NCBI GenBank assembly: GCA_947459205.1
Contig: CANHCR010000012.1
Coordinates: 1 to 59,331 of the forward strand
Direction: 5' to 3'
DNA: 59,331 nt
Origin: Caryophanales bacterium
GTDB lineage: Bacteria > Bacillota > Bacilli > Paenibacillales > CANHCR01
Shown here: piece by piece, positions 24,142 to 56,855 of the stretch
Numbering within the stretch: position 1 is the first letter of the stretch
Layout: each line of letters begins with the position of its first letter
Notes under the pieces: generated by a model
Seen by the model: the letters and a program-made list of their open reading frames with translations, nothing else
What the model was told of the DNA's origin: nothing
Databases searched by the model: none
Program-made: the position numbers and the translations under genes

Positions 24142-27100
24142 TTAAACACCGCTCATTTTTTCGAGCACCTCGTCCTTGCCTGCTTTTGTCAGATAACGGA
24201 ACGATTGATGTGGCAAAGTCCGGTCGAACTGACAGACCGACTTAAAATCGCAATACTCGCAAGCATTTGTTGAACCTAACTTGTGTGGACGAATCGCGTT
24301 GCCCCCAGACTGAATACCTTGCCCGATTTCGCCCATTTTGGTACGCACAAACGTCCGTAGTTGCTGCCATTGTTCGCTCGTTAGCAAATGTGCTTTGGCG
24401 CGGCCGTGCAAAGCCCCGCTGTCGACCGTCTGCACAGGCAAAACAGAAGATTCCGTTTTCGGTTGATGTAATTCGTGATCCATCATGCGGATGACGTCCA
24501 TTTCGTCGACCACGTAACCGCTCATTCGGTAACGTTTGCGATCCTGCTTTGCCTGCTCATCTGGTGTGAGCGGATGTGGTTCCGGCTCCACCTTGTCATG
24601 AATGTGGAAGTAGAACGCCCCTGCCACTTCGGCTTTGTCGCCAAGCAGCGTCTCCGCTTGCTCGGAAGCGATGTCTAGATATGCCAACAACTGCAAACTG
24701 ATGCCATGATACAGTTGATTCAAATCCAGTTTTTTGCCTCCCGACTTGTAGTCAATGACGCGCAGCCATTTGCGTCCTTGGCTATCCGTAGCGACATCGA
24801 GGCGGTCGACCACGCCTTGCAAAGTAAACGACTCCCAGCGCTGCTCAAACGCCCATTCGAGAGCTGCCGTTTCGAACGAACTGACCCGTTCATGGGCGGC
24901 GATGCCCGTCAACGTCTCCGTTACGACACGCGTTAACTTTTCGAGCGTATATTGCTGTTCAATCGAACTCGTCAAAATCGCATGCTGTATGTTACCGACT
25001 GCCGATTGCAACGCTTCATCCACTTTCGTCGCGAGTTGTTGCTCATCCAAATCAGATAACTTGCACCCTTCATCCTTGCACTGCTTAATGACCGTTTCGA
25101 TCACTTCGTGGTACAAACTGCCCGTGTGCATCGGCTTCAGTTCGAACGCTTCGCGCTCTCGCAGTCGCAGTCCGTATCTCGCAAAATGAGCAAATGCACA
25201 TTTGCTGAACAGTTCAAAACGCGAGACGCTGCCTTTCCATTGTTCACCGTATACTCCGCGGACCGCCTCTGTAGTCAAGCGCTTCGTTTCGTTGCGGTAG
25301 GCAGCTGCCTGATCTAGTCGTTGCAAGCGACGCTCAAGCGCCGGTACTTTGTGCAAACTTTGACCGATGATGCGCTCACCATTCTCAATCCATGCCTGCA
25401 ACGCCTGCTGCGGGTGTTGCAACGATTGTCGCAACGCATCAATCCCCATCGTGGCGTAGTCCAACTCGACTAAATGCCACGTTTCCTTAAGTACAGGGAA
25501 CATCTGATACAATTGCCCAATCCAACCGGAGGCGATCAAACCTTTGCCTGACTCATTGCCGAGCGCGTAACTGACTCGCAAACGACGCACACAAGTGGCG
25601 ATTGTCGTATAGAGTAGGAACGATTCGTCGAGCAGCATCCGCAGTGATGCAGGAGATAGCGGAATATCTGCAGCAATGAGGAGGTTTCGCTCACGGTCAC
25701 TTAGCAAACCCTTTTCCGTGACTTTAGCCGGCAACACGCCTTCGTTCACACCGACCAAAAACATATATTGCACATCACCAGCGCGCGTGCGGTCGAGACT
25801 GCCGACTAGCACCTGGTCGAGTGACGGCGGCACAAATCCGACTTTAAGTGATTCGAGTGCGCGATCAAACGTGCGAACCCACTGATTCGTGCGAAACGAC
25901 ATATCACCGAGAATTTCGACATTTTGGTCAAGGATGTGGATGATGCTCGTCCAGATCGCCGCATTATCTTGCGCCGCTTCCAAATCGCCCGCCTGTCGTC
26001 TGCGTTCCCCCATCCGTTCGCACGTTTCGGGAACACGCAAATCGCACAAATAATCATAGAGCACTTGCACGGCTGAGCGCACATCGTTGCAGTCTGTCAG
26101 CCCTTTTTGCAACTTCAACAGCGGCTGCAAAATCAGTTTGCGACACTGCAACAGTCGCTTCCAGGTAGCGCCGTCAATCGTCGAGCCATTGATACGCAGC
26201 GGTTTTTCCCAGTATGTGTCGTGCAACCAACGACGTCGTTCCAAACCAGCCGCCAACACGACATTTTCCAGTAAATCAATGTCCGTTTGCAGTTGTTGCT
26301 GTTCTTCTTCACTCTTATTAGGCACGAAAAAACCGGTTTTAATCGCACGAAACAAATCATCATAACGCCAGTAACGTTGTACGGTTTGTAGCGAGGCTCG
26401 AACAAATTCGACTAGCGGATGATCGGCCACCGAACGTTTTTGATCGCTGAAAAACGGAATTTCGTATTTTGGGAAAATCTCACGGATGAGCGGCAAGTAA
26501 TCGTCAATATTGCGCATCATCAGCGCCATATCACGCCATCTCGCCCCTTCTTCACGGGCAAGCCGGGAAATCTCGATCGCTGCCGTTTCAATCTCTACCC
26601 TGCGATTCACCGCCGGACAAAGCGTCAAACCGTCCATCTCACCTCGATAGGCAATGGCTGGTCGTTGTTCGAACGTCGATTCCAAATGCACAAGCGCCGA
26701 ACTGCGTTGCCGGCGGAGTACGTGTTCTGCGTTGTTAGCATATCTCGCACCCGTCGGACCCATCGCACGGGCCGTGCCGTTCAAATCAAGCGTCGCCTCG
26801 ACTTGCACGCCAAACTTCGCGCACATCGCACGCAACTGCTTGTATGTGACAGCCGTTCGGTGAAACAGATTCAGCTCGTCGAGCGATTCACGTTCGCTAT
26901 ACTCGCGGTCCAAACAAAGCGTGATCGTTAATCTGCGACAATGAATCGCCAGTTGCGTCAACACATTGAGTTCAAGCGAAGTGAAACCGTGAAACCCGTC
27001 TAACCAAATCTCCGCTTGGCGAATGTGCGCAGATCGCTCAATCAGGTTGGCAAGCAGTATTAGGTCATCCTCAGCGTCAACGTAATGTTTCGCAAGTTCC

Positions 27101-27624
27101 GCCTCATACGATTGATAGATCAACAACAAATCGCGCAGTTTCGCCGCCAACGAACGCTCCACCGTCTGCGCTTCATCTTGTTCTTGTTCATCGGCAAACG
27201 ACGCCAATCGCTCTTCGCTAACACCATTTCGCTTCCACTCCGCAAACAAGCGCCCCATCTGTTCTAACAAGCCGTCAGAAATCGTGGTCGCCCGATAAAA
27301 ATTCAAACGCTCGCCCACCACGTGAACCGCCTTAAGCAAAATCATCTGTTTACCGGCATCATCAATGTAGACGCGCGACGTACCACGCTCCTGCTGCATC
27401 AAACGGTGTGCGAGGCGACGAAAACTGAGCACCTCAGCGCGCATACTACCCCGAAGTTCAGGACGACTGACAATCGCATACTCTGCTTGGAACGACCCTT
27501 GTTCTGGTACAATCCAGATGAGCGGCGAACCTGTTGCAGATGCGCGTAACTGACTACATATTTCATTCAAACAAACGCTTGTTTTCCCGTAACCGCCTCG
27601 ACCGAGCACAAAACGCACTGCCAT
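24142..27624 (-). CDS. addB: ATP-dependent helicase/nuclease subunit B (AddB)
   Basis: A 1160-residue protein, the normal AddB length. P-loop GRGGYGKT is at residues 8-15. The body aligns well from memory with Bacillus subtilis AddB (for example PPSLDQVLVGSLDRTR, VFLVGVNEGVLPA-like segments). The C-terminal RecB-type nuclease has IDYKS near residue 958. Four cysteines of the Fe-S staple are in place: one in SKCAFAHFA near 809 and three in CEYCDFKSVC near 1119-1127. AddB recognises Chi and cuts the 5' strand as part of AddAB in double-strand break repair. Oddly, addA, which normally follows addB, is absent here: the next gene downstream is convergent and unrelated. Confidence 0.95.
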   Translation of the reverse strand: MAVRFVLGRGGYGKTSVCLNEICSQLRASATGSPLIWIVPEQGSFQAEYAIVSRPELRGSMRAEVLSFRRLAHRLMQQERGTSRVYIDDAGKQMILLKAVHVVGERLNFYRATTISDGLLEQMGRLFAEWKRNGVSEERLASFADEQEQDEAQTVERSLAAKLRDLLLIYQSYEAELAKHYVDAEDDLILLANLIERSAHIRQAEIWLDGFHGFTSLELNVLTQLAIHCRRLTITLCLDREYSERESLDELNLFHRTAVTYKQLRAMCAKFGVQVEATLDLNGTARAMGPTGARYANNAEHVLRRQRSSALVHLESTFEQRPAIAYRGEMDGLTLCPAVNRRVEIETAAIEISRLAREEGARWRDMALMMRNIDDYLPLIREIFPKYEIPFFSDQKRSVADHPLVEFVRASLQTVQRYWRYDDLFRAIKTGFFVPNKSEEEQQQLQTDIDLLENVVLAAGLERRRWLHDTYWEKPLRINGSTIDGATWKRLLQCRKLILQPLLKLQKGLTDCNDVRSAVQVLYDYLCDLRVPETCERMGERRRQAGDLEAAQDNAAIWTSIIHILDQNVEILGDMSFRTNQWVRTFDRALESLKVGFVPPSLDQVLVGSLDRTRAGDVQYMFLVGVNEGVLPAKVTEKGLLSDRERNLLIAADIPLSPASLRMLLDESFLLYTTIATCVRRLRVSYALGNESGKGLIASGWIGQLYQMFPVLKETWHLVELDYATMGIDALRQSLQHPQQALQAWIENGERIIGQSLHKVPALERRLQRLDQAAAYRNETKRLTTEAVRGVYGEQWKGSVSRFELFSKCAFAHFARYGLRLREREAFELKPMHTGSLYHEVIETVIKQCKDEGCKLSDLDEQQLATKVDEALQSAVGNIQHAILTSSIEQQYTLEKLTRVVTETLTGIAAHERVSSFETAALEWAFEQRWESFTLQGVVDRLDVATDSQGRKWLRVIDYKSGGKKLDLNQLYHGISLQLLAYLDIASEQAETLLGDKAEVAGAFYFHIHDKVEPEPHPLTPDEQAKQDRKRYRMSGYVVDEMDVIRMMDHELHQPKTESSVLPVQTVDSGALHGRAKAHLLTSEQWQQLRTFVRTKMGEIGQGIQSGGNAIRPHKLGSTNACEYCDFKSVCQFDRTLPHQSFRYLTKAGKDEVLEKMSGV

Positions 27625-37064: not shown

Positions 37065-37076
37065 ATCTATACCGCT

Positions 37077-37079
37077 TCA
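37077..37079 (-). other. In-frame UGA interrupting the TraG/VirD4-like gene
   Basis: The codons read ...CAT GCG ACT TCC TGA AGC GGT ATA GAT TTG CAA... on the minus strand, with no frame change on either side. A single CGA-to-TGA change would explain it. No obvious SECIS-like hairpin follows. Confidence 0.85.
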
Positions 37080-38255: not shown

Positions 38256-38267
38256 ACGTATCAACTC

Positions 38268-41047: not shown

Positions 41048-41261
41048 AAAAATCCCTCCTAATGAATATTGATAAATGGAAACTCAGAAAATAAACATAA
41101 ATTACTATTTCAATAAAATTGTTAAATTTCCTTTATTAAAAAATATAAATTTACACATTTTTTCTTTTTTACAAGATCAACTTCACAACAAAACGGAGTG
41201 TTTTTCCAGTATACTGACATTACCACCACAAATGTCTATACGTCTTTCAGGAGGAGATTTC

Positions 41262-43589: not shown

Positions 43590-44557
43590 GTTTTGAGCGA
43601 ATGTTCCGCGACTGGCCGCTTACTCATTTGCGAGAGGTGAAAATGATACGCAGTTATTCGGTAACGACCGACATATTGTCGTACAAAAGGTGCCGGCGAC
43701 AGTATGGATTTTTTAACGTACGCGGCTATCGAAGTTCATCGGCTACGCAACGTTACTTCGGGACAATGGTGCATGATGTGCTCGACCAACTGTATCGCAT
43801 GTACAAAAAAACGAAACGACTCCCGGACGGACGGGAAGTCGTTGATTGTGTCGAGAAAGCGCATGTTCGTCTCATTCAATCGGGCGTGCGCGCGGTTTAC
43901 ACTGTCCAACAAAAAGAACAAATCGTCACACTGATCCGGCGTTTTTTGGAACTGGCGGGACAACCTTTTTTCGCAAATATTCGCGAAACGGAGTACACCT
44001 TGGAGCGCTCCATGGACGGTGATGGCGCACCCGACTTCGTGCTGGAAGGAATCGTCGACGTATTGGCAGGGGCAGTCTCGCATGCATTGGGACTCGAGAT
44101 GTCGCGCTCGACCACTGGCAATGACGTCGAAATTTGGGATTACAAATCCGGCGAAATGCCCGCTGCCGATTCCCAATTGATGGCTGACTATCAGTACCAA
44201 ATGAACGTTTACGCCGAACTGTATTATCAGCAGACGGGCATCTACCCGGCTCGCTGCGTGCTGATGTTCATCGGTGAACTGAACAACGATCGGCTGTACA
44301 ATCGGTGTCGCGCCGACATCCGCGAATTACGTCACATTTTGCATGTGATACACCCGAGTGACGAGCAGATTGGACGTGCGATGACAGATTTCCGGCAAAC
44401 GGTCGCTTGCATCGAAGGCGAGAAGCAATTGCCGTATGCCACGCAATGGCAAGCACCAAATCATGACGTGGACCGTGACACATGTATCGCTTGCGAGTTG
44501 CGATACCATTGCCCGAAGTTCAGCGACCGCGACCGGCACCGGCGGGAGCCGTTGTAG
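43586..44557 (+). CDS. Cas4/AddB-like PD-(D/E)XK nuclease with Fe-S cysteines
   Basis: A 323-residue protein. ATG 43586 overlaps the helicase stop codon; ATG 43643 (after GAGAGGTG) is an alternative. Active-site candidates are His in GTMVHDVLDQL, Asp/Glu in LEGIVDVLAG, and the hallmark IWDYKSG, then a QMNVYAELYYQ motif. Cys36 (YKRCRRQYG), Cys300, Cys303 and Cys309 (CIACELRYHC) match the four-cysteine 4Fe-4S staple of Cas4 and AddB nucleases. It is therefore a RecB-type exonuclease predicted to act with the helicase upstream. There are no CRISPR genes nearby, so it is not an adaptation Cas4. Confidence 0.88.
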   Translation: MSFERMFRDWPLTHLREVKMIRSYSVTTDILSYKRCRRQYGFFNVRGYRSSSATQRYFGTMVHDVLDQLYRMYKKTKRLPDGREVVDCVEKAHVRLIQSGVRAVYTVQQKEQIVTLIRRFLELAGQPFFANIRETEYTLERSMDGDGAPDFVLEGIVDVLAGAVSHALGLEMSRSTTGNDVEIWDYKSGEMPAADSQLMADYQYQMNVYAELYYQQTGIYPARCVLMFIGELNNDRLYNRCRADIRELRHILHVIHPSDEQIGRAMTDFRQTVACIEGEKQLPYATQWQAPNHDVDRDTCIACELRYHCPKFSDRDRHRREPL

Positions 44558-44735
44558 TGGTAAAATGGGACCGTGAAAGCAGTCACTGATCGAGGTGCAT
44601 CCCATGATCTCACTGCATGTTTCGCGCGAAAAAATGTCGGTCACGGCGACGGCCTCCGTTTCTCTAGGTTTCGGTTGATTGTCAGTCCATACAATTTTTC
44701 CACGCTTCACCTCGCGCTATACACCAGTCAATCAT

Positions 44736-45623
44736 CTAGTGATGCACGATATAAATCGGCACTTTATAGCGATTAAAATTCGCCCCGCTCGGATAAAGCA
44801 ATTTTTCAAACGTTACATGTTGATCGTTCCGTGAATCCAGTAATGTTGCCACCATTTCAATATTGCCGTAGATATAATCGGCACCATTGTGATACCACCG
44901 GTAATGGCGATATCCGCTTGGTTGCCCGAGCATGAATCGCTCAATATCAAACAAAGCGTCTGTTTTTAGATGCGGTAATGATCGTTGCAATTCGGTCCTG
45001 AGTGTTCGGAAAGCAAACGCGTTTGCCATCGCTTCCTCATGAGGCAGATTGGCATATGGACCAAGCATTTGTACAGAGTATACATGATGAAAATAATCTA
45101 AAAAGACTGGTCTCGGACAGCGAGCAAGATACAGAATTTCCTCAAGCGTAGTGGCAGCGACATCGACAAAATAATGATAATGCTCGTGCGCTAGCAACAG
45201 TTTGTACGCCCAAATTCTGGAGTCGATAATCCCTTGTTGTTTGGTTGAGGCAGCCCTGCGAATCGCAGTAAGACGGCGCGCTAACTTTTGCACGCCCTTC
45301 GTACGGATATAGATGCCCCACTTGTGCTGCGGCTCAAAATGATAAGAACGGTACCACGCGTAATACTCAAAGCAATCTTCATCTGGCAAGTCACGTTGAG
45401 GATCTTCGTCCAGCCAGTCTTCCTCTTCCCACTGTTCGCAAATCCACGGTTCGTTGACCATTTGGTCAGTTGGAACGCTGTTGAACGGCTCGCCAAACTC
45501 CTCTGAAATCGGCACATTTGCACAATCAAGCAGATTTCTGCGGAACACATCGTACTTGTCATTGGCATGGGTCGTAACGCCCATTTCTCGCACACTGCGC
45601 AACAAATCTTCATTTTTTATCAT
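44736..45623 (-). CDS. HExxH metalloprotease-like protein (ImmA/IrrE-like core)
   Basis: A 295-residue protein with ATG 45623 behind AAGGAG. It contains a zinc-protease motif HEHYH (146-150) in LLLAHEHYHYF and a downstream helix HEEAMANAFAFRTLR (195-209) in which Glu196 or Glu197 fits the third zinc ligand. This spacing resembles ImmA/IrrE-like gluzincins. The N-terminal 140 residues are acidic and unassigned. No signal peptide, so cytoplasmic. It lies alone between convergent UvrD/Cas4-like genes and the AddAB-like set, 106 bases downstream of the 471-residue helicase on the same strand. It could be a regulator-cleaving protease or an effector. Confidence 0.6.
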   Translation of the reverse strand: MIKNEDLLRSVREMGVTTHANDKYDVFRRNLLDCANVPISEEFGEPFNSVPTDQMVNEPWICEQWEEEDWLDEDPQRDLPDEDCFEYYAWYRSYHFEPQHKWGIYIRTKGVQKLARRLTAIRRAASTKQQGIIDSRIWAYKLLLAHEHYHYFVDVAATTLEEILYLARCPRPVFLDYFHHVYSVQMLGPYANLPHEEAMANAFAFRTLRTELQRSLPHLKTDALFDIERFMLGQPSGYRHYRWYHNGADYIYGNIEMVATLLDSRNDQHVTFEKLLYPSGANFNRYKVPIYIVHH

Positions 45624-45729
45624 GAAAGTTCACGCTCCTTTTTTAACGAACAGGCAGGCTCACACCTTGATGAGGTTAACCGAAGCAACGCCACAATGAG
45701 ACATTTATGAATTTATAACGACCATACAC

Positions 45730-47145
45730 TCAAACTTTCCGGACTTCATATAAATCGCTATCCAGTTCTTTCAAGAAACTAGAAGCCCCACCTGACTGTA
45801 CGAGATAAAGCTCGAATTTGGCCCTCGTCATTGCGACATATAAAAGCCTGCGCTCAACCGATAGATGTTCTTCCATTACTTCAATTTTTTCGTTATGGTT
45901 TTCTTTTTTCGGTACCGCATCATCTCTAAACTTGCAAATAATGACGCTATCAAACTCCAATCCTTTTACTGAATGAAAATTGCTAATCTTTACGCCCGGA
46001 GACAGCACGTCGCCCTCATCTTCTTGTATTAATTCGGGACGCATTCCTCTTGTCTCCAAAGCAAATTTCAGTTTTTGCACATCTTTCCAACCTCGGCCTA
46101 GTAATCCGATGACATAATTCGGTCTACTCTCCTGTATTTTTTTGACCAAATCAAAGACTGTGTCGTATTCTACCATTGCATTTTTACATACAATTAACTG
46201 AGGTATGGGGCCCTCAATATTAGGTATCTCCGGTGATACGTAATCTTCATCTTTGTTTTTATATCCAGGGTCATGTCGTTGCAAACTATGTGCGAGTGAG
46301 ATAATTTGTTTTGTTGAACGATGTGTTTGAGTTAGCACCTTAGTTCGGCCACCGGAAACATTAATGCCAATTTCACGCCATGAAAAAGAAGTATTATAGA
46401 TTTTTTGTCCTTTATCTGCTGCGAAGACAATTCCTTTACGAGCCGCTTGTTTCAAAAGAATTAGTTGCAAATAGTGCAAATCTTGAGCTTCATCCACAAA
46501 CACATGATCGTAGCGACCCGTTTGTGTCGACTCCTCCCACTTTTTCTTTAACAACAATGCAAAATCATCAAAATCACATTTTTTTTGTTCTTTTAGAAGC
46601 AAACAATAGCGTTGAAACACATCGAACACAACTTCCCTGTCCGCTACTACCAGTCTGACCTTGCTTCCGCGACCGCTACGATCGCCGTTCAAATAGCCAT
46701 CTCTCTGAGAAATATCTTTCCCTTTAATAAACGATATTTCTTCTTTCAAAAAATTAAAATATTTATTTTCATTAACTAAGCGGTTTGTAGATTTCTCGGC
46801 AATATTCTTAATTGCTTTCTCAAGAATCGCATCTTGATTTTTCCCCTTCACGACATATAATTTTACTTTGTACTCATCAAGCAGTTGACGAGCCCATGAA
46901 TGAAAATTATATACCTTAATCCGATCCGACTCTAGAATCCTTGCAAGTGAAGTTGCATATTTACGCAAAGTTTTGTTATAGGTGAACAAAGCTACAGTCG
47001 CTTGTGAATCGGTTGTTATAATCTTTCGCGCTCTTTTCAGCAGTACAGTTGTTTTTCCGCTGCCAGCAATTCCTTTAACAAGCATTTCGTCGCCAGAGTA
47101 ATCAACGGCTTCTTGTTGTTTAGGTGTTAATTTCAAATCAAACAT
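45730..47145 (-). CDS. Compact UvrD-like superfamily 1 helicase
   Basis: A 471-residue protein, much shorter than UvrD or PcrA. Walker A GIAGSGKT is at 25-32, motif Ia FTYNKTLRKYA, Walker B VFVDEAQDL, motif III-like FAADKGQKIY, motif V NFHSVKGLEFDSVII and motif VI RRLLYVAMTRAK. The 1B and 2B subdomains appear reduced. It has ATG 47145 with GAGGAGGAC, overlapping the stop region of the 69-residue gene 12 bases upstream. It is the last gene of a set with an AddB-like and an AddA-like protein, so it may be a second motor of the same machine. Confidence 0.85.
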   Translation of the reverse strand: MFDLKLTPKQQEAVDYSGDEMLVKGIAGSGKTTVLLKRARKIITTDSQATVALFTYNKTLRKYATSLARILESDRIKVYNFHSWARQLLDEYKVKLYVVKGKNQDAILEKAIKNIAEKSTNRLVNENKYFNFLKEEISFIKGKDISQRDGYLNGDRSGRGSKVRLVVADREVVFDVFQRYCLLLKEQKKCDFDDFALLLKKKWEESTQTGRYDHVFVDEAQDLHYLQLILLKQAARKGIVFAADKGQKIYNTSFSWREIGINVSGGRTKVLTQTHRSTKQIISLAHSLQRHDPGYKNKDEDYVSPEIPNIEGPIPQLIVCKNAMVEYDTVFDLVKKIQESRPNYVIGLLGRGWKDVQKLKFALETRGMRPELIQEDEGDVLSPGVKISNFHSVKGLEFDSVIICKFRDDAVPKKENHNEKIEVMEEHLSVERRLLYVAMTRAKFELYLVQSGGASSFLKELDSDLYEVRKV

Positions 47146-47157
47146 TCTTCGTCCTCC

Positions 47158-47367
47158 TCAATCATCATCTTCATCATCGCTCATTATAAAATCTTTAGCG
47201 GAACGTATCTTTGACTCTGTCCCTTGTGCGCTAAGCGTCGCATGAGATCCACTTACACCTTCTGTCGTAACGGAATCAATTTTGCCTCTCGTTTCTTTCG
47301 ATGTAAATTCAATCCATTTGCTCGCGATAGTTTTCCATAACGAAAAGTCCAACTTTCGAATTTCCAA
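47158..47367 (-). CDS. 69-residue protein with acidic tail, unrecognised
   Basis: A TTG start (47367) preceded by GGGAGGT at 7-base spacing, and a stop codon that abuts the helicase ribosome binding site, support this as a real gene. The sequence has a helical N-terminus (LWKTIASKWIEFTS), a Ser/Thr-rich middle, and an acidic end (SDDEDDD). An acidic C-terminal tail can mimic DNA or bind a helicase, but no function can be assigned. It lies 15 bases downstream of the AddB-like gene. Confidence 0.6.
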   Translation of the reverse strand: MEIRKLDFSLWKTIASKWIEFTSKETRGKIDSVTTEGVSGSHATLSAQGTESKIRSAKDFIMSDDEDDD

Positions 47368-47382
47368 ATAAATTACCTCCCA

Positions 47383-50088
47383 CTATTTGTCTAGAGCATA
47401 CATTCCTTCCGGACAATAATTCAGATGCGGACAAAACATGCAAGATTTAGTTGGTTGCGCGATTAATGTATTTTCTGTAGTTGCGAGTTTTAATTTCGAG
47501 ATGATTTCATCGCGCTTATTGATTTTGTTTTTAGCTTCCAGTAATTCATATGCGCGTCTAAACGCTTCGTATCCTGGCTTGTCCGACTTATTCAAAAGAA
47601 ATTGAAATTGCTGACGATCGCTAGAATATTTTCTTCCACCTATTTCATTCAGTTTGTTGCGACGTATCGGATTATCTTTGACATTTTCCCAATTCTCTAA
47701 AATTTGCACTCTAGTCAACTGCGGAAAAATAATCATCATTTCATTGATTAACTGTTCTGAATCTATTTTCAAATGCTTATGCATTACACTCGTCAGATTA
47801 GACGCTAGAAATGATAGGTGAAAATCGCTTTCATAATGTGCAAACTCGCTGGCGATAAAACTGTAATAAAATCTTCGCTGACAAAATTCGTATTCAGAAA
47901 ATGCGTCTAAGGGAAATTTTAATAACACTTTCTCCGCACTTTCTATTTGAGCGTCCATGACGTTTAATGTTACGTCTTCTTGTTTTGCTATCTCGTTACC
48001 GTAATCGTGGATTGGTTGCTCAAGCAATTTAACATATGGTGATTGTTCAATATTTGATTTCCCGTCCCAATCTTGAATCCACGAAAACTCAATCTTACAA
48101 TCCGATGCCATTAACATGTAGAGTAGATATTTTGCTATTGATGACGATTGCTGCTCACGCACTAAAACCATCGACATTGCTCTATTTTCTTGAGCATATT
48201 CAACGACTGAATCTCGTGTTAGAGGCCACATGTTGTAACGAAACCGAAACGGCAAAAAATATTCATCAGCTAAACAAACATGTATTTTCTTTGGTTTGTC
48301 CGATACACTCTGCAATATGACTTCTCCATCCAAGTTATAGAAGTGATTAATGGCAATTTTATTTTCACCGAATTCACTCCATTGTTTATCAGAATCAGAA
48401 AAATCTCCGCCTAAGTAAAGCGCAATCGCTCCTGCTAAATCTTTAACAAAAAACTCATCACCATCATCTTCTGAAATTTGAATTCGTTCTTTCAATTTAG
48501 CAACTAATTGTGTCTCTGAATGATTCAATTCGACTTGATCTAAACCTTGTTGAATCAATTCCTCAATTCGTTGAAAATGCTTGTATAGCGTTTGTTTATG
48601 TGGTTTTTGTTCCGTTACAAAAAGCGTCTCGGCAATGGCTATCAATCTTTGGATAAGACTTAACACGACGGATGCATCTTCCATTTTCACATTCATATAC
48701 GATAAACGTGTGAACGGGCTTTCTGCCATGCGGTGAAATCGGTTGCTTTCCAATCCGTCATCTACCTTAAACGCATCAAATATCGTTTTTTGCATCTCGC
48801 GTAACTGCTCGATTCTAACTATCCAATCACTAACAAATTCGCAGTCAGCAAAATATGGCAACAATTTCTGCAATGTTGACAAATATAATCTACCATCTTT
48901 ACCATTCACATAAAGCCACCCAGAACTCATGCACTCCGTTAAACTTTTTGAATTTAAAATGAGCTTATTTCTTTGCTCATCCCACATTTTGTGCAAGTGA
49001 AAAAGAAACTGTCCTATCGGGTAGGATAAGAAATGTTTCTGATTTTGATATGATTCAGGATAGTATTCTTTCATCCGTTCATTCAACCCGGTGTCTGGCG
49101 GGGCATATAAAACCAGATCTTTTCTGAGCAGCCCTTTCTGGTCGGTCGTAAAATCTAAAAAATCATAAAAATTCTTAAAGCTTCGTACCTTTACATTTAT
49201 TTGCGAATGCTGATCAACTTCAATTGATTCGTATCCTTCAAATGCACCCGCAAATTGTTCTGCAATGGGTTGAACATTTGCAAGTTTTCCACTCCATGAG
49301 TTTTTCAAGCGAGTCATTGTCTCATTATCCGTAACCGCCTCTACGACGGACTGTAGACAAGAAAATATATTTGGAAAACGCTCATCGTAGAGATTCACAA
49401 ATGTAATATGTATACCCGCCCTCACTAAAGCATCAACTACACGCTGTTGCAATGGTGTTAGAAAGAAAAATCCATGAAAGACCATTTCGAAACCAGATAG
49501 ATCATATTCAGTCGGTTCTTTTTTTTCATCACTAACGAAGGGAATAAGTCGCACCAATTTTTTCTTAATTTCTATCGTATCAGCCGTTTCCCAAGCTGTT
49601 ATATTCTTTTTGAACTCTTGAAATGAACGATCCTCATGATACATTTTCATGTACAACGATTTAAAAAGCGTTTCTTCATCCGTCGTTTCATTTAATTCTT
49701 CCGGTTTTAAACCAGCTTCGCAAAGCATCCGCATTCTCAACAACACTTGTTGTTGATTTCTCCGAAACGAGAGACTGTACTCATTGTTGTTCTTAAAACT
49801 CGAATGGTTTTCCATCCATTCTGTTAATTGTGCAAATTGTTTAATGATTACTCGGCCTTGATTCCACTTTATAAACATCCCATCGACTAGGCTTCCGAAA
49901 AACACGATATCTGAATCGATAAATGAACGTTTAGCATCAACCTTACGAAAATTCTTAGAATACAACGTTTGTATCGCCCTAGTAATGCCAAAGTTAAAAC
50001 AAACATGCAACGCTTTGTTTAGTTTTTTTATTTGTGTATGTTCATGTAATTCGGCCATATTTGACACAGTAATCACGCTGATGCTCAA
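47383..50088 (-). CDS. AddB-like protein lacking the nuclease core
   Basis: A 901-residue protein with a TTG start (GAGGTGG 7 bases upstream) overlapping the AddA-like stop codon by TTGA. The long middle part follows the inactive-helicase layout of AddB/RexB (SGFEMVFHGFFFLTPLQQRVVDAL; DGEVILQSVSDKP). The C-terminus keeps the four-cysteine staple pattern: Cys736 in EYEFCQRRF, then Cys883, Cys886 and Cys892 in CMFCPHLNYC. Only 147 residues lie between the first and second cysteines, against about 310 in the true AddB in this window, and no IDYKS-type motif is found. No Walker A is seen at the N-terminus. It is thus probably a structural partner with an Fe-S cluster but no nuclease activity. Confidence 0.75.
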   Translation of the reverse strand: MSISVITVSNMAELHEHTQIKKLNKALHVCFNFGITRAIQTLYSKNFRKVDAKRSFIDSDIVFFGSLVDGMFIKWNQGRVIIKQFAQLTEWMENHSSFKNNNEYSLSFRRNQQQVLLRMRMLCEAGLKPEELNETTDEETLFKSLYMKMYHEDRSFQEFKKNITAWETADTIEIKKKLVRLIPFVSDEKKEPTEYDLSGFEMVFHGFFFLTPLQQRVVDALVRAGIHITFVNLYDERFPNIFSCLQSVVEAVTDNETMTRLKNSWSGKLANVQPIAEQFAGAFEGYESIEVDQHSQINVKVRSFKNFYDFLDFTTDQKGLLRKDLVLYAPPDTGLNERMKEYYPESYQNQKHFLSYPIGQFLFHLHKMWDEQRNKLILNSKSLTECMSSGWLYVNGKDGRLYLSTLQKLLPYFADCEFVSDWIVRIEQLREMQKTIFDAFKVDDGLESNRFHRMAESPFTRLSYMNVKMEDASVVLSLIQRLIAIAETLFVTEQKPHKQTLYKHFQRIEELIQQGLDQVELNHSETQLVAKLKERIQISEDDGDEFFVKDLAGAIALYLGGDFSDSDKQWSEFGENKIAINHFYNLDGEVILQSVSDKPKKIHVCLADEYFLPFRFRYNMWPLTRDSVVEYAQENRAMSMVLVREQQSSSIAKYLLYMLMASDCKIEFSWIQDWDGKSNIEQSPYVKLLEQPIHDYGNEIAKQEDVTLNVMDAQIESAEKVLLKFPLDAFSEYEFCQRRFYYSFIASEFAHYESDFHLSFLASNLTSVMHKHLKIDSEQLINEMMIIFPQLTRVQILENWENVKDNPIRRNKLNEIGGRKYSSDRQQFQFLLNKSDKPGYEAFRRAYELLEAKNKINKRDEIISKLKLATTENTLIAQPTKSCMFCPHLNYCPEGMYALDK

Positions 50089-52640
50089 GACATATCCACC
50101 TCTTCATCATAAGGTAACATCGACGCCCAAGTGTGGTTGTTTCTGACCAGTTTTGTCTTGTCAACCGCACCATAAAGATTATTAATAATCCACAAACGTT
50201 GCTTACACCTAGTAAGAGCAACATAAAGCAGCCTAGCTTCTTCTTCCAACGTTTCTTTCTTATCATCATTATTCAAGTCTTCATAGAAATAATTGTTGAT
50301 TTTTGAATTCTTTTTTACCTGCCAACCTGCAATCAATTGACCCTCACGTTTACCGACGATAATCCGATTAAACTCCGGTAAATGATCTCGTGCTGTAAAT
50401 GGCAAAATAACCGTGTGAAATTCCAGTCCTTTCGCTCTGTGCACGGTTGTAATTTTAATCGGCTTATACTGTGATGATTTAGAAACGTCCTCCACCGGTT
50501 TCACATCTTCCTCGCGGTTGGTAGCTTGCTGCAATATCAACCATTGATGAAGCCCGTAAAGAGTGAGAAAATCGGAACTGAATTTTTGATGGATGAGTTC
50601 GAACAATTGATTCAAATCTGTATGATACTGACGTTTTTGTCGATCAGCCTCAATGGTGATTTGAAGTTCTCTCTCTGCTTGATTTAATTTAAGCCTCCAA
50701 GTCTTAATCAATTGATTCTTCACTTCGATTTCATATCGATCGAGATAATCAGAATTTAACATGATTTTTCTTAGTACAGATAACAAAGGCTCTTTTCGCA
50801 ACAATATCAAGCATTCATCCCACTGCGTAAAAGGCAAGCATTCCGGTGTATTGAGAAAGTCCATGATTTGTTTAGAATCGCCATCAAATACAGCTAATCT
50901 TGACCAATGAATTCGCACTTTGGAATACGACGTATTCAGTAAATTTAAACGGGCACGAGCATCACCAGGATACAGTAACGCTTCGACAAGTGCTGCAAAT
51001 TCCTTTACTGCCTGAGACAAAAAAAACGTCCCATTTAAATGAAGCTCTGTGAAAATACCTTTCTCTTCACACCAATTCTGTAACCTCTTCGCTTGGTTGT
51101 TCGTGCGCACAATACAAGTCACGAAATGAGAACCATGATCTTTTTCATCATTTAAATTTGGTAAAGATTTCTGCGCTGATTCGATCCACCTTAGCGTGCG
51201 CTTCTTCACTTCGTCACTAAATTGATTTTTTTCTTCACAAACGCTGACCTTAAACGAAAAGTCGTTCTGTAGCATCCCAACCAGTTTGTCATCTTCCTTG
51301 TATTTTAAGAGATCTAACCCTCCAAGATGACTGAATGGAAAATCAAGTTCATCCAAAACGCTTGTACACGTTCGATAGTTTCTTACTAATGTTAGATGAT
51401 GAATTTCTTCTTTTATGTTATCGAACTCATACTCGAGTTGCTCAAAAGCTGTATCTGTAGCTCCCCTAAAACGATAGATACTTTGTTTAATGTCACCTAC
51501 TACGAAAACACGCGTATAGAGTTGTCTAACAATTTTAGCCACCATTCGAATTTGCGCATTGTCTGTATCTTGAAATTCATCCACAAATAAATATTTGATC
51601 GGTAACGTCAATTGTCTAAGTGATTCTATACGATCCATTTGACGTGGAATGTCATTCAACGAGACTCCATTAAGCCGGATTTTGAGATCTTGTATTTCTT
51701 TTTCGATTTGAGAAAAGATTTTTTTTAAAATGTTTTGTAGGGGCTGAAAATCTTTGTTTGCATCTCCAAAATTAATTCGCTCTATTTCTTCTTGACGATA
51801 GCTCTTCTTCTCCAATTCATCCCAAAAGTTTTCAATGATTTTCACGAGTTCATATAACTTAATCGATGAGAAACGTTGCTGCAAAGTCCGTCTATCTTCA
51901 GGATCAAGCAGATTTTCATCTAGATAGCGATAAATAATCTTCTTTTTTTCCATCTTAAACGTTTTGATTTGCACGTTATTACCAAAACCCACTTGGCTGC
52001 CTGCTTCTTGCAAAATCATTTTTGCAAACGCGTGAATCGTTTTTATACTCATAAACGGAAGTTGCTCAATAAAGTGCAAATATTTAGGCTTTCGAGTCGC
52101 CGTAAAACGAAGTTGAAATTGCTCGCGTAATTTTTTTTGCATTTGGTGAGCAGCTTCTCTTGTGAATGTAATCATACTGATATTTTCTAGATTCAAATTT
52201 GGTGTCGTATGTAACAAATACATGATGCGCTGAATCATCACCGTCGTCTTCCCCGTGCCAGCGCCTGCTTTAATCATCAAATGACTCTCTGGAGAGGCAT
52301 GTTCAATACGATACTGTTCGCCATTGAAGCTAGGAACAAGTTTTATGAAATCCTCTATAAACCGATCACATCTGTGTCCGTCAATTAACTGAACACCAAT
52401 AAATCTGCTTATGTCTCCTTCAGCGATATAAACTTGCAATAGATAACAATCATAGAATGCTTTCAACTCACCTTTTCGATCTGACAATACAGAATGTCCC
52501 GCATCCAAAATAAAGATTTGCTTGATGCCGTTGTTTAGATTCTCACGAATCTTTTCGAGTTCTTTATCAGTGATTAAATTCGAACGTGTGACGGTCAACA
52601 GGGAATACAACGCAGAATTTGCATTTTGATATTCAACCAA
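50085..52640 (-). CDS. AddA/UvrD-like helicase without nuclease domain
   Basis: An 851-residue protein with a TTG start; the upstream site AGAGG is modest. The N-terminal 115 residues are an unassigned domain. Walker A GAGTGKT is at 126-132, motif Ia ITFTREAAHQM, Walker B LFVDEFQDTD, motif III VVGDIKQSIYRFRGA, motif V ITTVHRAKGLEFHTVILPF and motif VI RLLYVALTRCKQRLW. It ends shortly after the helicase core, so it lacks the C-terminal nuclease of AddA. It overlaps and precedes the AddB-like gene, the reverse of the usual addB-addA order. Predicted DNA translocase of an AddAB-like complex. Confidence 0.85.
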   Translation of the reverse strand: MVEYQNANSALYSLLTVTRSNLITDKELEKIRENLNNGIKQIFILDAGHSVLSDRKGELKAFYDCYLLQVYIAEGDISRFIGVQLIDGHRCDRFIEDFIKLVPSFNGEQYRIEHASPESHLMIKAGAGTGKTTVMIQRIMYLLHTTPNLNLENISMITFTREAAHQMQKKLREQFQLRFTATRKPKYLHFIEQLPFMSIKTIHAFAKMILQEAGSQVGFGNNVQIKTFKMEKKKIIYRYLDENLLDPEDRRTLQQRFSSIKLYELVKIIENFWDELEKKSYRQEEIERINFGDANKDFQPLQNILKKIFSQIEKEIQDLKIRLNGVSLNDIPRQMDRIESLRQLTLPIKYLFVDEFQDTDNAQIRMVAKIVRQLYTRVFVVGDIKQSIYRFRGATDTAFEQLEYEFDNIKEEIHHLTLVRNYRTCTSVLDELDFPFSHLGGLDLLKYKEDDKLVGMLQNDFSFKVSVCEEKNQFSDEVKKRTLRWIESAQKSLPNLNDEKDHGSHFVTCIVRTNNQAKRLQNWCEEKGIFTELHLNGTFFLSQAVKEFAALVEALLYPGDARARLNLLNTSYSKVRIHWSRLAVFDGDSKQIMDFLNTPECLPFTQWDECLILLRKEPLLSVLRKIMLNSDYLDRYEIEVKNQLIKTWRLKLNQAERELQITIEADRQKRQYHTDLNQLFELIHQKFSSDFLTLYGLHQWLILQQATNREEDVKPVEDVSKSSQYKPIKITTVHRAKGLEFHTVILPFTARDHLPEFNRIIVGKREGQLIAGWQVKKNSKINNYFYEDLNNDDKKETLEEEARLLYVALTRCKQRLWIINNLYGAVDKTKLVRNNHTWASMLPYDEEVDMS

Positions 52641-52701
52641 CTATATCAGGCCTCTCTGTAAATGATAGCGATTACATAAATAGATTCAAAGGTTTTAAAA
52701 C

Positions 52702-52707
52702 ATTATA
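52702..52707 (-). promoter_or_regulatory. Candidate -10 element for the AddA-like gene
   Basis: TATAAT on the minus strand, 62 bases upstream of the TTG start. A weak -35 (TTCCAA) lies 17 bases further upstream. The rest of the gap 52641-52854 is AT-rich. Confidence 0.4.
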
Positions 52708-52751
52708 AGCGAATCGATGATTTATTGGAACAAACAACGGCATTATTCGAC

Positions 52752-52800
52752 AAAAAGCCTTGATAGGTCTTTAAACACTTAAAAAAAATTTAGGGCTTTT
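52752..52800 (-). terminator. Possible terminator after the DUF3427-MutT operon
   Basis: AAAAGCC (52753-52759) pairs with GGCTTTT (52794-52800), with an A run on the left that becomes a U run on the minus strand, 55 bases past the stop at 52855. The loop is long, so this is tentative. Confidence 0.35.
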
Positions 52801-52854
52801 CGAAACAAATTTGTCCGTACTCCGCATTCTGAAACAAAATCGCTTTAAGGTATA

Positions 52855-53235
52855 TTATACCTTTAGCGCGTGAATCACGGCATTTTGCCGTAGCTTTTTC
52901 TTAAAATCTGCAAGTCGCAACTCCAACTTCGCACGCAGCTCGCTCTCCTCACTCGAACCAGGCGCCAACGCACGGAACCATTTCACCAACACCTTCTCCG
53001 TGTCGCCGCCATTTTTCGCATACCCGCGCGCATAGCGCTCCGTATTCATCTGCTTGTAACCGATGAATTTACTCGGTCCAAACAGATCTAAACCATCAAT
53101 ATAGTACCAGTGGGCAAATTGCGAAAGCTGCTCGACCAGTTCCGTTTCATTGTCGAGATCATCATTGAACTGCACGACATTGTCCCCGAGCTCTTGTAAA
53201 TTCCCGACTAACTCAAACTTTTTCATTTCCATCAT
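52855..53235 (-). CDS. 126-residue protein of unknown function, third gene of the DUF3427 helicase operon
   Basis: A cytoplasmic, charged, mostly helical protein. The most distinctive stretch is FGPSKFIGYKQMN near residues 51-63, followed by a helix-rich C-terminus (AKLELRLADFKKKL). No family recognised. GGGGTG precedes the ATG, and the gene lies 13 bases after the MutT gene, so it is co-transcribed with the PLD-helicase. It may be an accessory factor of that system. Confidence 0.6.
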   Translation of the reverse strand: MMEMKKFELVGNLQELGDNVVQFNDDLDNETELVEQLSQFAHWYYIDGLDLFGPSKFIGYKQMNTERYARGYAKNGGDTEKVLVKWFRALAPGSSEESELRAKLELRLADFKKKLRQNAVIHALKV

Positions 53236-53248
53236 TCATTCACCCCAT

Positions 53249-53647
53249 TCAACACCCACTCTGATGTAGCAACTCATCCACTGTCGGAACATCTGCCGGT
53301 GCCCATTCTAAATCTTTTAATGATTTGACATCCAACCACACTAACTCGTCATGATCGGTCGAAGAGAGTACTCCTGATGTCAGTACGGCACGATAAGTAA
53401 TCAGGTGAACGACTACGTTCGGATATTCATGGTAAATGTCCGCCACCAATTCTCCCACCTCTATTTCGACGCCCATTTCTTCCCTAATTTCACGGATAAG
53501 CGCTTGCTCATGGGACTCGTTTTCTTCAATTTTCCCTCCCGGGAACTCCCAATAACCACCTAGTGATAAATGGCCCGCTCTTTTGGCACAAAGAATTTGC
53601 CCGTTTTCATTTTGAATGACAGCGCCTACTACGTTTACGGTCTTCAT
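53249..53647 (-). CDS. MutT-type (deoxy)nucleoside triphosphate pyrophosphohydrolase
   Basis: A 132-residue Nudix protein. The full Nudix box spans residues 38-60 (G38...E44...REIREEMGV), preceded by GYWEFPGGK, the classical MutT-like signature. The short length and the strand order (NVVGAVIQNENGQILCAKR) match the dNTP-sanitising or CTP-hydrolysing MutT/NudG group. It sits 22 bases downstream of a PLD-SF2-DUF3427 helicase. In this setting it may change nucleotide pools or process a nucleotide signal rather than do housekeeping, but that is inference. Confidence 0.88.
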   Translation of the reverse strand: MKTVNVVGAVIQNENGQILCAKRAGHLSLGGYWEFPGGKIEENESHEQALIREIREEMGVEIEVGELVADIYHEYPNVVVHLITYRAVLTSGVLSSTDHDELVWLDVKSLKDLEWAPADVPTVDELLHQSGC

Positions 53648-53669
53648 ACATTCACATCCAATTCATGAA

Positions 53670-56600
53670 TTAAGTTATAAAATCAAAGTAAATTTCTTCG
53701 GGTAATGGTTTTTCTAACCGCCAAACCATATTCATTGGTTGATCGCCATCACTACGAACATATATAAGTTTCCCACAGTACATAAACGGCAACGTCTGAC
53801 TATACATTTCTTTAAATTTTCGCACAAACAGATGGATGGAAATACCTCTTTCAAGATGATTCACATAGTCTTGACCTCGTTTTGAACGGTGTGCATCTTG
53901 ATTCGCGCTTTGCCAATGAAATGTTTTTTGATCCATAAAATAATCGTTGTAATTCAACTGTTTCTCAACGTCAGAACCTTTTCTAAGGGTAACGAAGAAC
54001 AAATAATGGTTCCTTACTTTACTAATTCCCTCACGCCAAGAACCAAGTGGCGCTTCTGATTGAAATAAGTAGATTAGTTCATTTCGCGTATAATTTTGGT
54101 AATGAACAATTGGAATTTCACCTTCAAAAAACTTGCTTGGTCGATATGTTCTTCTAAACTCTTTTAAACCAAATTCCAATCTTTTCTTTAAGTAGTTAGA
54201 GAAAATAGTCTGCGTAAAATAGCTCAATATGCTTGAGTTGAAGTGAAATACATCCGATTGAATCGTTCCAAACGAGACACCCTTCACAGTTTGCTGCAAG
54301 TTTTTCATGGCTCGTAAAAAATAAGGAATCTGCTTTGTCTGATCAAGCTCGATACCAAACTGTTTGTGTAGCATTTCTAACGCTGTTGATAAACTTAATT
54401 TACCTGTTGCTAAACTTGATTGCAACACAATAAATTCATAAGGCCATTTGATTGGCAACATTTGCTCGAGACGTTGGATGACCGCCATCAACGATTGATC
54501 TGATACGATTTTTTCATCAAAAGTATTCAAATCATTCATTCGTTTCTTGGTCTCAACCCACGAACCATATTTTCGAATGAAATAATGTAAGCTAGGAGCT
54601 GAGGGAACGTAAAGAAAATCTTCAATCTCAGGTGATTTGCCTAATTCATTTTTAAACGAATCATACAAATTTTTCAGCATTTGATTGGCATCCATGCGAA
54701 TTTGATCAATCTTGTCCAAAATTCGTTGGCGTGCAATTTGCTCTAAATCAACATAACAACCGTCTGGTAAATGTATAAAATCATGCTGAACAACTGAACG
54801 AAGTAAGTCACGATCAAAAGCTTTTTGATTGGTTTGACCAGACAATGCAAGTGGTACTAAAAACGATTTATTGTAATTCCCGATAAAATCAAGGATCGTA
54901 ACAAACTCTTTATTTTCAGCTTTGCGCAATCCTCTTCCTAATTGTTGCAGAAAAATAGTTGCAGATTCTGTCGGACGGAGAAAAAGTAGTAAATTCAACT
55001 TCGGAATATCAACCCCTTCGTTGAAAATATTCACAGTGAATATGAACTCTAGTGAATCAGAATCAGATTCGAGTCTCTCAATGATTTCCCGTCTGTAATT
55101 AGGATCATCCTGACCAGTCAAACAAACTGATATAAAACCATTCTCATTGAAAGCCTTCGTCATAAATTGAGCATGCTCTATGCTTGCACAAAAGCCAAGA
55201 GCCTTTCGCTGTTTACCATCATGACCGAATTTCTCGATCATAGAAATTACATAATCAACACGTTCACCAGTGCTCAATGCACGAGATAATTGTTCAATGT
55301 TAAATTGACCATTCTCCATTTTAATTTGTTCGTAGTCAATCGTTTCATCACTCAAGCCAAAATAGTGAAAAGGACAAAGCAATTTTTCTTGCAGCGCTTG
55401 ATGCAAACGTATTTCATAAACAACGTTGTAATCACAAAGAGCAAGAACATCCCCGCCATCCATTCGTTCAGGTGTCGCTGTCAAACCAAGAAGGAATTTT
55501 GGTTGAAAGTGATCAATAATTTTTCGATAGGTTGCAGCTTCTGCATGGTGAAATTCATCAACAATAATATAATCAAAATAATTGGGTTGATATGAATTGA
55601 TTTCACGATGAAAAGTCTGCACTGTACTGAAAAGGTAAGGCCTGTCCGACTCTTTTACTTGTCCGGTTAATTTTCCGAATCGCCCCGGTTCTCCCATTAC
55701 ATGAATAAATGAATTCCTGGCATTCTCGAGTAATTCGTCACGATGGGCTAAAAATAACATACGCTTCGGATTAAACCGTGCCACATCGAAAGCTGAAAGG
55801 TACGTTTTTCCGGTTCCTGTTGCAGCAATTATTACACCTTTCATATTTCCATTTTTCCGAGTCTCAATCAGTGCCTCTAGGGCAATTTCCTGCATTTCGG
55901 TTGGTTTAATTTTCACGTCGATTGAAGTAGTTGTTACTGGTGTTTGTTTTATTCCATAAGGTGATTGTTCCTCTGAAAACTTTTGAACGGGCACAGATGG
56001 TTGAATTTTATGTGTCAATTGATTTTCATAGTGGTTAAGCCATTCTTCTGATGCCTCGATCGCGAGAGGATCCGTCCACAGACTCGAAAAATGTTCACAT
56101 GCTTTCAAATAAACTAACGAATGAGATGTGGCTGGAAGTTTTACATTCCACTCAATCCCTGTTTCGAGAGCAGAATGTGATAAATTCGATGAACCGATGA
56201 TTGTAGAATGAAGTCCAGAGTTTCGATGAAAAATGTAAGCTTTTGTGTGAAACGATATTTGTTCTGATTGAAACACCTTGATTTGGACACCCTCGATCGT
56301 CAACAACTTTCGAATTGCTTCTGGTTGAGTAATGTTTAAATACGTGGACGTTATTAAACGAATTACTTTTTTCTTTTTTACCAAATCAGTGAGTATTCGC
56401 ATAATCTTCTGAACACCAGAAATTCGCAGAAAGCTAACGATAATATCTACACCATCTGCTGTGAGCATTTCTTTCTTCAATGCATGAATCAAATTATTGG
56501 AATGCCCCTCTTGGTTCGTAACAAGATTGGGTTGTGTTAAATGAAAATCCGACGGTAGAATGGGGAGTATTTCGTTCTCAAACCAATACTGTACTTTCGA

Positions 56601-56855
56601 TACGGGAGATTGAATTTCAGATGTATTTTCGTTCAGCAATTGTTCGATTTTATTGTACATTTCAACAATTTTGTCATATTGTTCGTGTTGAGCGTAAAAT
56701 TGAAACTGATTATTAATTTGTTGAGCGATTTGTTGAGTAAAAACTTCTGGGAGTTCAGACGGTTTGATCGGTATAATTCGACTTTGTTCAGGATAGTGCT
56801 TATCACGGTGGTGCAATTCCTCAAAAAAACCAGAACGATTCTCATTGTTTGACAT
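53670..56855 (-). CDS. PLD nuclease-SF2 helicase-DUF3427 fusion protein
   Basis: A 1061-residue protein. Residues about 110-240 are a phospholipase-D-type nuclease domain with HTK (203-205) and GSSNLS (221-226). About 315-690 is a superfamily 2 helicase: Walker A ATGTGKT (345-351), DEFH box (433-436), and motif VI QQLGRGLRK. About 690-900 is helical, and about 905-1061 matches DUF3427 (GSWREGISKVRN, FHWQSANQDA, LFVRKFKE). This architecture is known from accessory and defence regions. GGAGGAG precedes the ATG and a TATAAT lies at 56900-56905 on the minus strand. It heads an operon with MutT and a 126-residue protein. Predicted to move along and cut DNA. Confidence 0.9.
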   Translation of the reverse strand: MSNNENRSGFFEELHHRDKHYPEQSRIIPIKPSELPEVFTQQIAQQINNQFQFYAQHEQYDKIVEMYNKIEQLLNENTSEIQSPVSKVQYWFENEILPILPSDFHLTQPNLVTNQEGHSNNLIHALKKEMLTADGVDIIVSFLRISGVQKIMRILTDLVKKKKVIRLITSTYLNITQPEAIRKLLTIEGVQIKVFQSEQISFHTKAYIFHRNSGLHSTIIGSSNLSHSALETGIEWNVKLPATSHSLVYLKACEHFSSLWTDPLAIEASEEWLNHYENQLTHKIQPSVPVQKFSEEQSPYGIKQTPVTTTSIDVKIKPTEMQEIALEALIETRKNGNMKGVIIAATGTGKTYLSAFDVARFNPKRMLFLAHRDELLENARNSFIHVMGEPGRFGKLTGQVKESDRPYLFSTVQTFHREINSYQPNYFDYIIVDEFHHAEAATYRKIIDHFQPKFLLGLTATPERMDGGDVLALCDYNVVYEIRLHQALQEKLLCPFHYFGLSDETIDYEQIKMENGQFNIEQLSRALSTGERVDYVISMIEKFGHDGKQRKALGFCASIEHAQFMTKAFNENGFISVCLTGQDDPNYRREIIERLESDSDSLEFIFTVNIFNEGVDIPKLNLLLFLRPTESATIFLQQLGRGLRKAENKEFVTILDFIGNYNKSFLVPLALSGQTNQKAFDRDLLRSVVQHDFIHLPDGCYVDLEQIARQRILDKIDQIRMDANQMLKNLYDSFKNELGKSPEIEDFLYVPSAPSLHYFIRKYGSWVETKKRMNDLNTFDEKIVSDQSLMAVIQRLEQMLPIKWPYEFIVLQSSLATGKLSLSTALEMLHKQFGIELDQTKQIPYFLRAMKNLQQTVKGVSFGTIQSDVFHFNSSILSYFTQTIFSNYLKKRLEFGLKEFRRTYRPSKFFEGEIPIVHYQNYTRNELIYLFQSEAPLGSWREGISKVRNHYLFFVTLRKGSDVEKQLNYNDYFMDQKTFHWQSANQDAHRSKRGQDYVNHLERGISIHLFVRKFKEMYSQTLPFMYCGKLIYVRSDGDQPMNMVWRLEKPLPEEIYFDFIT

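Follow-up and report, generated by a model that had tools for sequence, protein, structure and literature searches.

We analysed a 59,331-nucleotide stretch of DNA (hereafter the window) from a Caryophanales bacterium (NCBI GenBank assembly GCA_947459205.1, contig CANHCR010000012.1, positions 1 to 59,331 of the forward strand), and within it a set of four genes, here named A, B, S and H, which probably represents a hitherto undescribed aid to the defence of bacteria against foreign DNA. The four genes form one compact head-to-tail operon on the minus strand, with a 4-base overlap between A and B and short gaps before S and H, and a Shine-Dalgarno-like sequence lies upstream of each of them. 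An earlier note, made from the letters of the window, had described this arrangement, in which a small acidic protein and a compact UvrD-like helicase follow an AddA-like and an AddB-like protein, and the layout was confirmed. The G+C content of the stretch carrying the operon is low (0.37–0.42, versus about 0.51 across the initial 30 kb), and scans for promoters and terminators at the locus gave results no better than those obtained with shuffled sequences.

AddAB and RecBCD are helicase-nucleases; in AddAB, AddA is the motor and AddB is a DNA-binding scaffold with one nuclease, and the usual gene order is addB-addA. Protein A is an AddA without its nuclease. The best PDB match of a profile of the A family (42 relatives) was AddA (3u44_A, E = 6.6e-64), and AddA was also the best Foldseek match (E = 6.2e-28) of the predicted structure of A (predicted local distance difference test [pLDDT] 86, predicted template modelling score [pTM] 0.85). 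The Pfam matches of A were UvrD-helicase and UvrD_C, helicase/NTPase domains with nothing else enzymatic, and all five of the helicase motifs tested (I, II, III, V and VI) are present. The C-terminal nuclease of AddA is absent from A, since the protein stops right after motif VI, and Pfam gave no PDDEXK match for the window A, nor for any of the 42 A proteins scanned.

The kinship of B with AddB is visible only in its predicted fold, because all sequence comparisons failed: B matched nothing in Pfam or NCBIfam and no AddB sequence, hhalign against the single AddB of the window gave a probability of 1.2, and a PDB profile search returned no AddB. In contrast, AddB (3u44_B) ranked first in the Foldseek search with the predicted structure of B (pLDDT 82, pTM 0.76; E = 3e-13), and the two superposed with a VIA Z of 18.2 over 630 residues and a root-mean-square deviation of 6.2 Å, the runners-up being UvrD-type and RecC chains with Z values of about 14. 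As modelled, B is an AddB that lacks the Walker A motif and the nuclease core and retains the four cysteines. The nuclease motif set GxxxH / D / (D/E)xK, sought with regular expressions, was found in 0 of the 66 B proteins, and so was the Walker A motif, whereas the housekeeping AddB of the window, used as a control, was positive for the former and carries GRGGYGKT for the latter. A single B protein from the class sample described below fitted the nuclease expression, but upstream of the cysteine region, so a hidden intact nuclease was rejected. Seven of 45 B proteins matched PDDEXK_1 weakly (E = 0.0093 at best), and a single weak PADLOC match, to Cas4d (E = 0.002), runs across the region of the first cysteine. 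Thus, no intact PD-(D/E)XK site was found in either large subunit, and the earlier claim that both lack a nuclease is borne out.

The four cysteines of the AddB/Cas4 type were invariant in all 45 aligned B proteins, and a regular expression for the full pattern matched 61 of the 66, the five misses including two proteins without the cysteine triplet, one of which is cut by a contig end. Cys736 is separated from the triplet by 147 residues in the window B versus 313 in the AddB of the window, and across the B proteins this distance ranged from 119 to 243 residues, with a median of 149. The cysteines probably form a pin around a putative Fe-S cluster; the Fe-S scaffold of the earlier note remains an inference from the invariant residues. 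The B homologues from Clostridia (L060, L073, L076, L077 and L079) are longer, at about 1400 amino acids (aa), with some 450 extra residues. A PIN_4 match (E = 3.3e-15) was recorded for one aligned B protein, presumably L076 (one long member was scanned), and another nuclease may be fused to B in these long proteins.

Table 1. Genes, motifs and neighbouring features of the window (positions on the 59,331-nucleotide stretch)
Feature	Coordinates	Strand	Description
Gene A	50085..52640	-	AddA-type SF1A helicase, 851 aa, TTG start
A motif I (Walker A)	52245..52268	-	AGAGTGKT
Gene B	47383..50088	-	AddB-fold subunit (predicted), 901 aa, TTG start
B Cys736	47881..47883	-	First of four AddB/Cas4-type cysteines; invariant in alignments
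B Cys883-x2-Cys886-x5-Cys892	47413..47442	-	Other three cysteines; invariant in alignments
Gene S	47158..47367	-	69 aa, conserved W-containing start, acidic tail
S acidic C-terminal tail	47161..47184	-	MSDDEDDD
Gene H	45730..47145	-	Compact UvrD-type (GajB-like) helicase, 471 aa
PLD + ResIII helicase + DUF3427 protein	53670..56855	-	Context, possible partner (PADLOC mREase_IV), upstream of A
NUDIX hydrolase	53249..53647	-	Context (PADLOC PDC-S07)
Housekeeping AddB	24142..27624	-	ADDB_N + intact PDDEXK_1 (comparison)

As the earlier note proposed, the operon is not the housekeeping AddAB, and a true AddAB is also present in this genome, with AddB in the window and an AddA of 1211 aa on another contig (L087:4165-7797). 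The usual addB-addA pair thus appears to be unlinked in this genome, the two genes being on different contigs and no frame of addB length flanking addA. Full-length AddA was retained in 24 of 25 genomes with the operon, which indicates that the operon is an addition to AddAB and not a replacement for it.

The set recurs in other genomes, so that neither of the two observations named in the earlier note as refuting its reading was made. We assembled 66 B loci, the window included, mostly from Bacillota. Homologues of B were detected at three taxonomic depths, the order (10 of 296 genomes), the class (17 of 398) and the phylum (3 of 398), own genome included, and in addition at 55 loci of a species-wide scan and on two plasmids; a Geobacillus zalihae plasmid carries all four genes, arranged as in the window. 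The gene order is reversed relative to addB-addA, in agreement with the earlier note, and A directly precedes B at 61 of the 66 loci (with a wider gap at L061 and L075); of the five exceptions, four are close to the end of a contig and the fifth, L030, has B followed by A. In a separate test on the class sample, three loci of which repeat species already counted, A and B were adjacent at all 14 complete loci, with H next at 10. Evolutionary distances were strongly correlated between A and B (r = 0.972, 59 pairs) and between B and H (r = 0.938, 17 pairs), as expected for descent as a unit; shared descent alone explains part of these values. No viral homologue was confirmed in IMG/VR, and one partial match was obtained in a phage collection. 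No description of the gene set was found in the searchable literature, with supplements and most subscription papers outside its reach.

The nuclease is a swappable part of the A-B sets, the N-terminus of A carrying a NERD domain, another domain or none. The window A has no N-terminal NERD domain. Pfam identified NERD in 16 of 42 A proteins; with a local profile, 38 of 61 proved to have it at their N-terminus, but this profile was made from seven of the proteins later found with it, so the independent count is that of Pfam. A different N-terminal domain with an LxLQLF motif was present on seven A proteins (L020, L045–L048, L051 and L052), and L022 has yet another. The two of these scanned, L047 and L022, had no Pfam match for their N-terminal domains, and a nuclease role for domains of the L047 type and that of L022 would be a guess. 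In a maximum-likelihood tree of the helicase core of A (58 rows), three changes were sufficient to account for the N-terminal labels. The tree split into 30 rows all with NERD (hereafter the sister clade) and 28 rows comprising 8 with NERD, 8 with another domain and 12 with none, and the window A fell in a group of 13 rows, 12 of which lack an N-terminal domain, with a support of 92/89, below the 95/80 mark. The nuclease-free state is common to this group and is therefore old and conserved, not a local defect.

H is a UvrD-type helicase with all five of the tested motifs present, so that, with A, both of the motors recognised in the earlier note have intact helicase motifs. The best PADLOC models of H were those of GajB (PDLC00132, E = 2.5e-34). 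However, this label is generic to the UvrD fold, because A and the helicase at 41076-43589 match GajB models too; among the matches listed, PADLOC gave generic UvrD-type models or nothing for A, S and H. Homologues of S occupy the same position of the operon in relatives. An automatic scan found S in 14 of the 18 operons with the S-trailing form of H (about 470–540 aa, one cut by a contig end), and inspection of the gaps by eye added L021 and L027, with none at L048 and L052. These homologues were mostly recognised by position and tail, a direct phmmer search at E 1e-3 recovering them at four loci only. In 13 of the 16 S tails a hydrophobic residue comes after the acidic stretch, as in SDDLDDDLF, and the tail of the window S lacks that residue. 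The tails of the single-stranded DNA-binding protein (SSB) read SDDDLPFDN in the own genome and SDDDLPF in one relative, six other SSB loci having yielded no usable tail. Because the S and SSB tails are alike, an SSB-tail-like docking role for S is a fair guess and no more.

The operon is linked to genes that mark DNA. In 19 of 25 genomes a C5-methyltransferase lies no more than 10 kb from it, where uniform placement would give 0.28; the window is among the six misses. This test covered 25 of the 28 type-1 loci, the plasmid records L019 and L020 and the locus L044 being excluded; G300 and G304, with loci on short contigs, and G000 were scored as misses, the positions being derived manually from contig ranges. 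By eye, Vsr-like genes were seen near 10 loci and a MutY-like glycosylase near three. In the sister clade, as read at L057, homologues of DpdE, DpdF and DpdH follow B, with a weak DpdG match, and a DpdF-like gene was present in 17 of 18 genomes. DndB and DndC beside L098 were confirmed by PADLOC, and genes of the dnd type were noted by eye in other flanks of this clade. Among the matches listed for the ten window proteins scanned (41076-56855; for three of them the best 25 rows) there was none to Dnd, and a single weak DpdF match (E = 0.00063) was given by the PLD-ResIII protein. A defence role, offered as one option in the earlier note, is thus supported in part, by the linkage to C5-methyltransferase and restriction genes and by the dnd/Dpd-like sister clade. 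Three genes, one of them for a GHKL-looking ATPase (paraMORC-like by eye), also cluster beside L027, L044, L046, L048, L051 and L052, a neighbourhood comparable to the restriction islands of the MORC type (PMC2292703).

Several related loci have a nuclease gene close to the operon. At nuclease-free operons, a PLD gene lies 12 bp downstream at L021, and AIPR genes lie 14–15 bp upstream of the short-A operons L025 and L038; a gene for a methyl-directed restriction enzyme lies 125 bp downstream at L062, and restriction genes of the MutH type were found at L039 (confirmed by Pfam) and L042 (by clustering). The nuclease-free loci L019, L023 and L032 have no recognised nuclease directly adjoining them. 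The nearest nuclease candidate in the window is the PLD-ResIII-DUF3427 protein, a homologue of which lies directly downstream of H at L027; mREase_IV and NUDIX families co-occur near that locus, as they do at 53249-56855. A nuclease acting in trans, as the earlier note suggested, is plausible, since relatives have NERD fused to A, or PLD, AIPR or methyl-directed restriction genes adjoin their operons; at the window locus such a nuclease is hypothetical. The metalloprotease at 44736-45623, proposed as an effector, was rejected, with a homologue at 0 of the 65 other loci; it is encoded on the minus strand and has 295 aa, a motif of the HEHYH type and no Pfam match. The plus-strand PDDEXK_1 nuclease at 43586-44557 was likewise rejected as the missing nuclease (0 of 65 loci), and it pairs with a UvrD gene of its own, both lying on the strand opposite to that of the operon. 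In this pair (41076-44557), a UvrD helicase of 837 aa overlaps a Cas4/RecB-like nuclease of 323 aa with a C-terminal cysteine motif, an arrangement resembling the unfused UvrD + Cas4-like operon reported from Clostridiales (PMC5704561).

Compared with AddAB, the operon shares the AddA helicase in A and, in B, the predicted AddB fold and the four-cysteine pattern; it differs in having no nuclease in A, neither nuclease core nor Walker A motif in B, the order A-B, the additional genes S and H, and coexistence with a true AddAB. The nearest precedent comes from Dcm/Vsr and type III restriction-modification loci, where UvrD-Cas4 fusions are helicase-nucleases predicted to be defence helpers (PMC5704561). 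Both have a UvrD-type motor, with cytosine methyltransferase and Vsr neighbours in the relatives of the operon, but the fusion is one protein with a Cas4-like nuclease, whereas two AddAB-type subunits without the nuclease core are found here. The Dnd/Dpd systems resemble the sister clade in the neighbours of A-B, but the window has no dnd genes and a single weak DpdF match, and the words uvrd, recb and addb are absent from the main text of PMC10853773 on these systems. ArmD of ARMADA type II is described as a GajB-like UvrD helicase with an N-terminal RelE-like domain, and the H proteins of L028, L029 and L054 have a long N-terminal extension that is RelE-like by eye, with no Pfam RelE match for L054; in contrast to the operon, ARMADA has a YprA helicase and a methyltransferase, and no AddB-type subunit in the text examined (PMC12458937). 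The likeness to Gabija is that H and A match GajB profiles, reflecting the shared UvrD fold. Further related literature includes PMC12839542, PMC8011034 and PMC10910872.

We consider the chances about even that the set encodes a complex that descends from AddAB, loads on ends and unwinds DNA in the service of modification-linked restriction, with its nuclease fused or in trans. A and B would pair as a heterodimer of AddAB origin, loaded on DNA ends or forks and driven in the 3'-5' direction by A alone, B acting as a non-catalytic clamp, dead as an ATPase and as a nuclease, with its C-terminus held by the four-cysteine, probably Fe-S, pin. H would be a second motor, and S an acidic-tailed adaptor that, like an SSB tail, may join H to A-B or to DNA-processing partners. 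The complex would work with modification-linked restriction by unwinding or clearing DNA cut or flagged as foreign; cutting would be performed in some relatives by the NERD nuclease fused to A and at the window locus in trans, the simplest candidate being the neighbouring PLD-helicase restriction protein. A broader version of the unwinding complex, which we advance tentatively, is that A-B may be a general restriction motor, made from AddAB by the loss of both AddB active sites and of the AddA nuclease, and then plugged into chemically unrelated marking systems (5-methylcytosine restriction-modification and phosphorothioation with Dpd-like helicases), its swappable nuclease lost in the lineage of the window, and that two motors tethered by the SSB-tail-like S would unwind foreign ends and pass them to any nuclease present.

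Several observations weigh against the restriction-linked complex. The window lacks a C5-methyltransferase at 10 kb or less from its operon, the sole PF00145 match of the genome being on another contig, and, because defence genes cluster, the linkage overstates functional coupling. Six matches to mREase_IV were obtained across 65 loci, of which two are weak and three are fragments at the edge of a contig, and with so few matches this family is not a fixed partner. S was found at 1 of 15 class-sample loci with a stricter scan, although L119 and L121 of that sample have an H of 474–482 aa. Lastly, the Vsr, glycosylase and GHKL ATPase neighbours fit the repair of self-inflicted damage equally well.

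This repair of self-inflicted breaks in restriction islands is the main rival explanation, albeit an unlikely one: the complex would unwind chromosome breaks made by host restriction enzymes, or by the repair of 5-methylcytosine, and channel them into recombination with the ends left undegraded. The loss of the nuclease suits a need not to degrade, the ancestry of AddA and AddB is in repair, and the Vsr and MutY-like genes are plausible repair genes of 5-methylcytosine systems, but the NERD nuclease fused to A in relatives, the Dpd-like restriction helicases adjoining the sister clade and the AddA already present in 24 of 25 hosts argue against it. We regard as quite unlikely a stand-alone anti-phage helicase of the Gabija kind, which would sense phage replication intermediates or ends and unwind them or trigger a partner regardless of restriction genes. 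H is closest to GajB models, AIPR genes adjoin two short-A operons and the set occurs on plasmids; however, among the matches listed, which for three proteins were the best 25 rows, no GajA was found for the ten window proteins scanned, and the GajB matches reflect the UvrD fold in general. Finally, the low-GC island and the lost catalytic sites might indicate accessory DNA that is decaying or selfish, in which an AddAB paralogue now without function degenerates on a mobile island. This is very improbable, given that all frames are open, the motifs of A and H are intact, the four cysteines and the gene order are kept across genera and the whole group is nuclease-free.

A recurrent AddAB relative with a motor and a cysteine pin, and without any nuclease or second ATP site, raises the question of what unwinding alone is for, and the operon provides a natural separation-of-function variant for the study of AddAB. 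Its ties to cytosine-methylation restriction-modification, and those of the sister clade to phosphorothioation, suggest that one shared processing arm may stand behind different marks of self and non-self.

Other features were observed in the window. Within the low-GC island, the G+C content rises to 0.48–0.49 at 42000-46000, where the metalloprotease gene and the helicase-nuclease pair of the plus strand lie, which suggests that this segment is a separate insertion. A transposase of the PD-(D/E)XK nuclease family (PF12784) is encoded at the edge of the island (30341-31435, minus strand), and of two consecutive minus-strand frames at 35907-38264, one matches the N-terminal and the other the C-terminal part of a coupling ATPase of the VirD4/TraG type (T4SS-DNA_transf), which looks like a split or broken gene.

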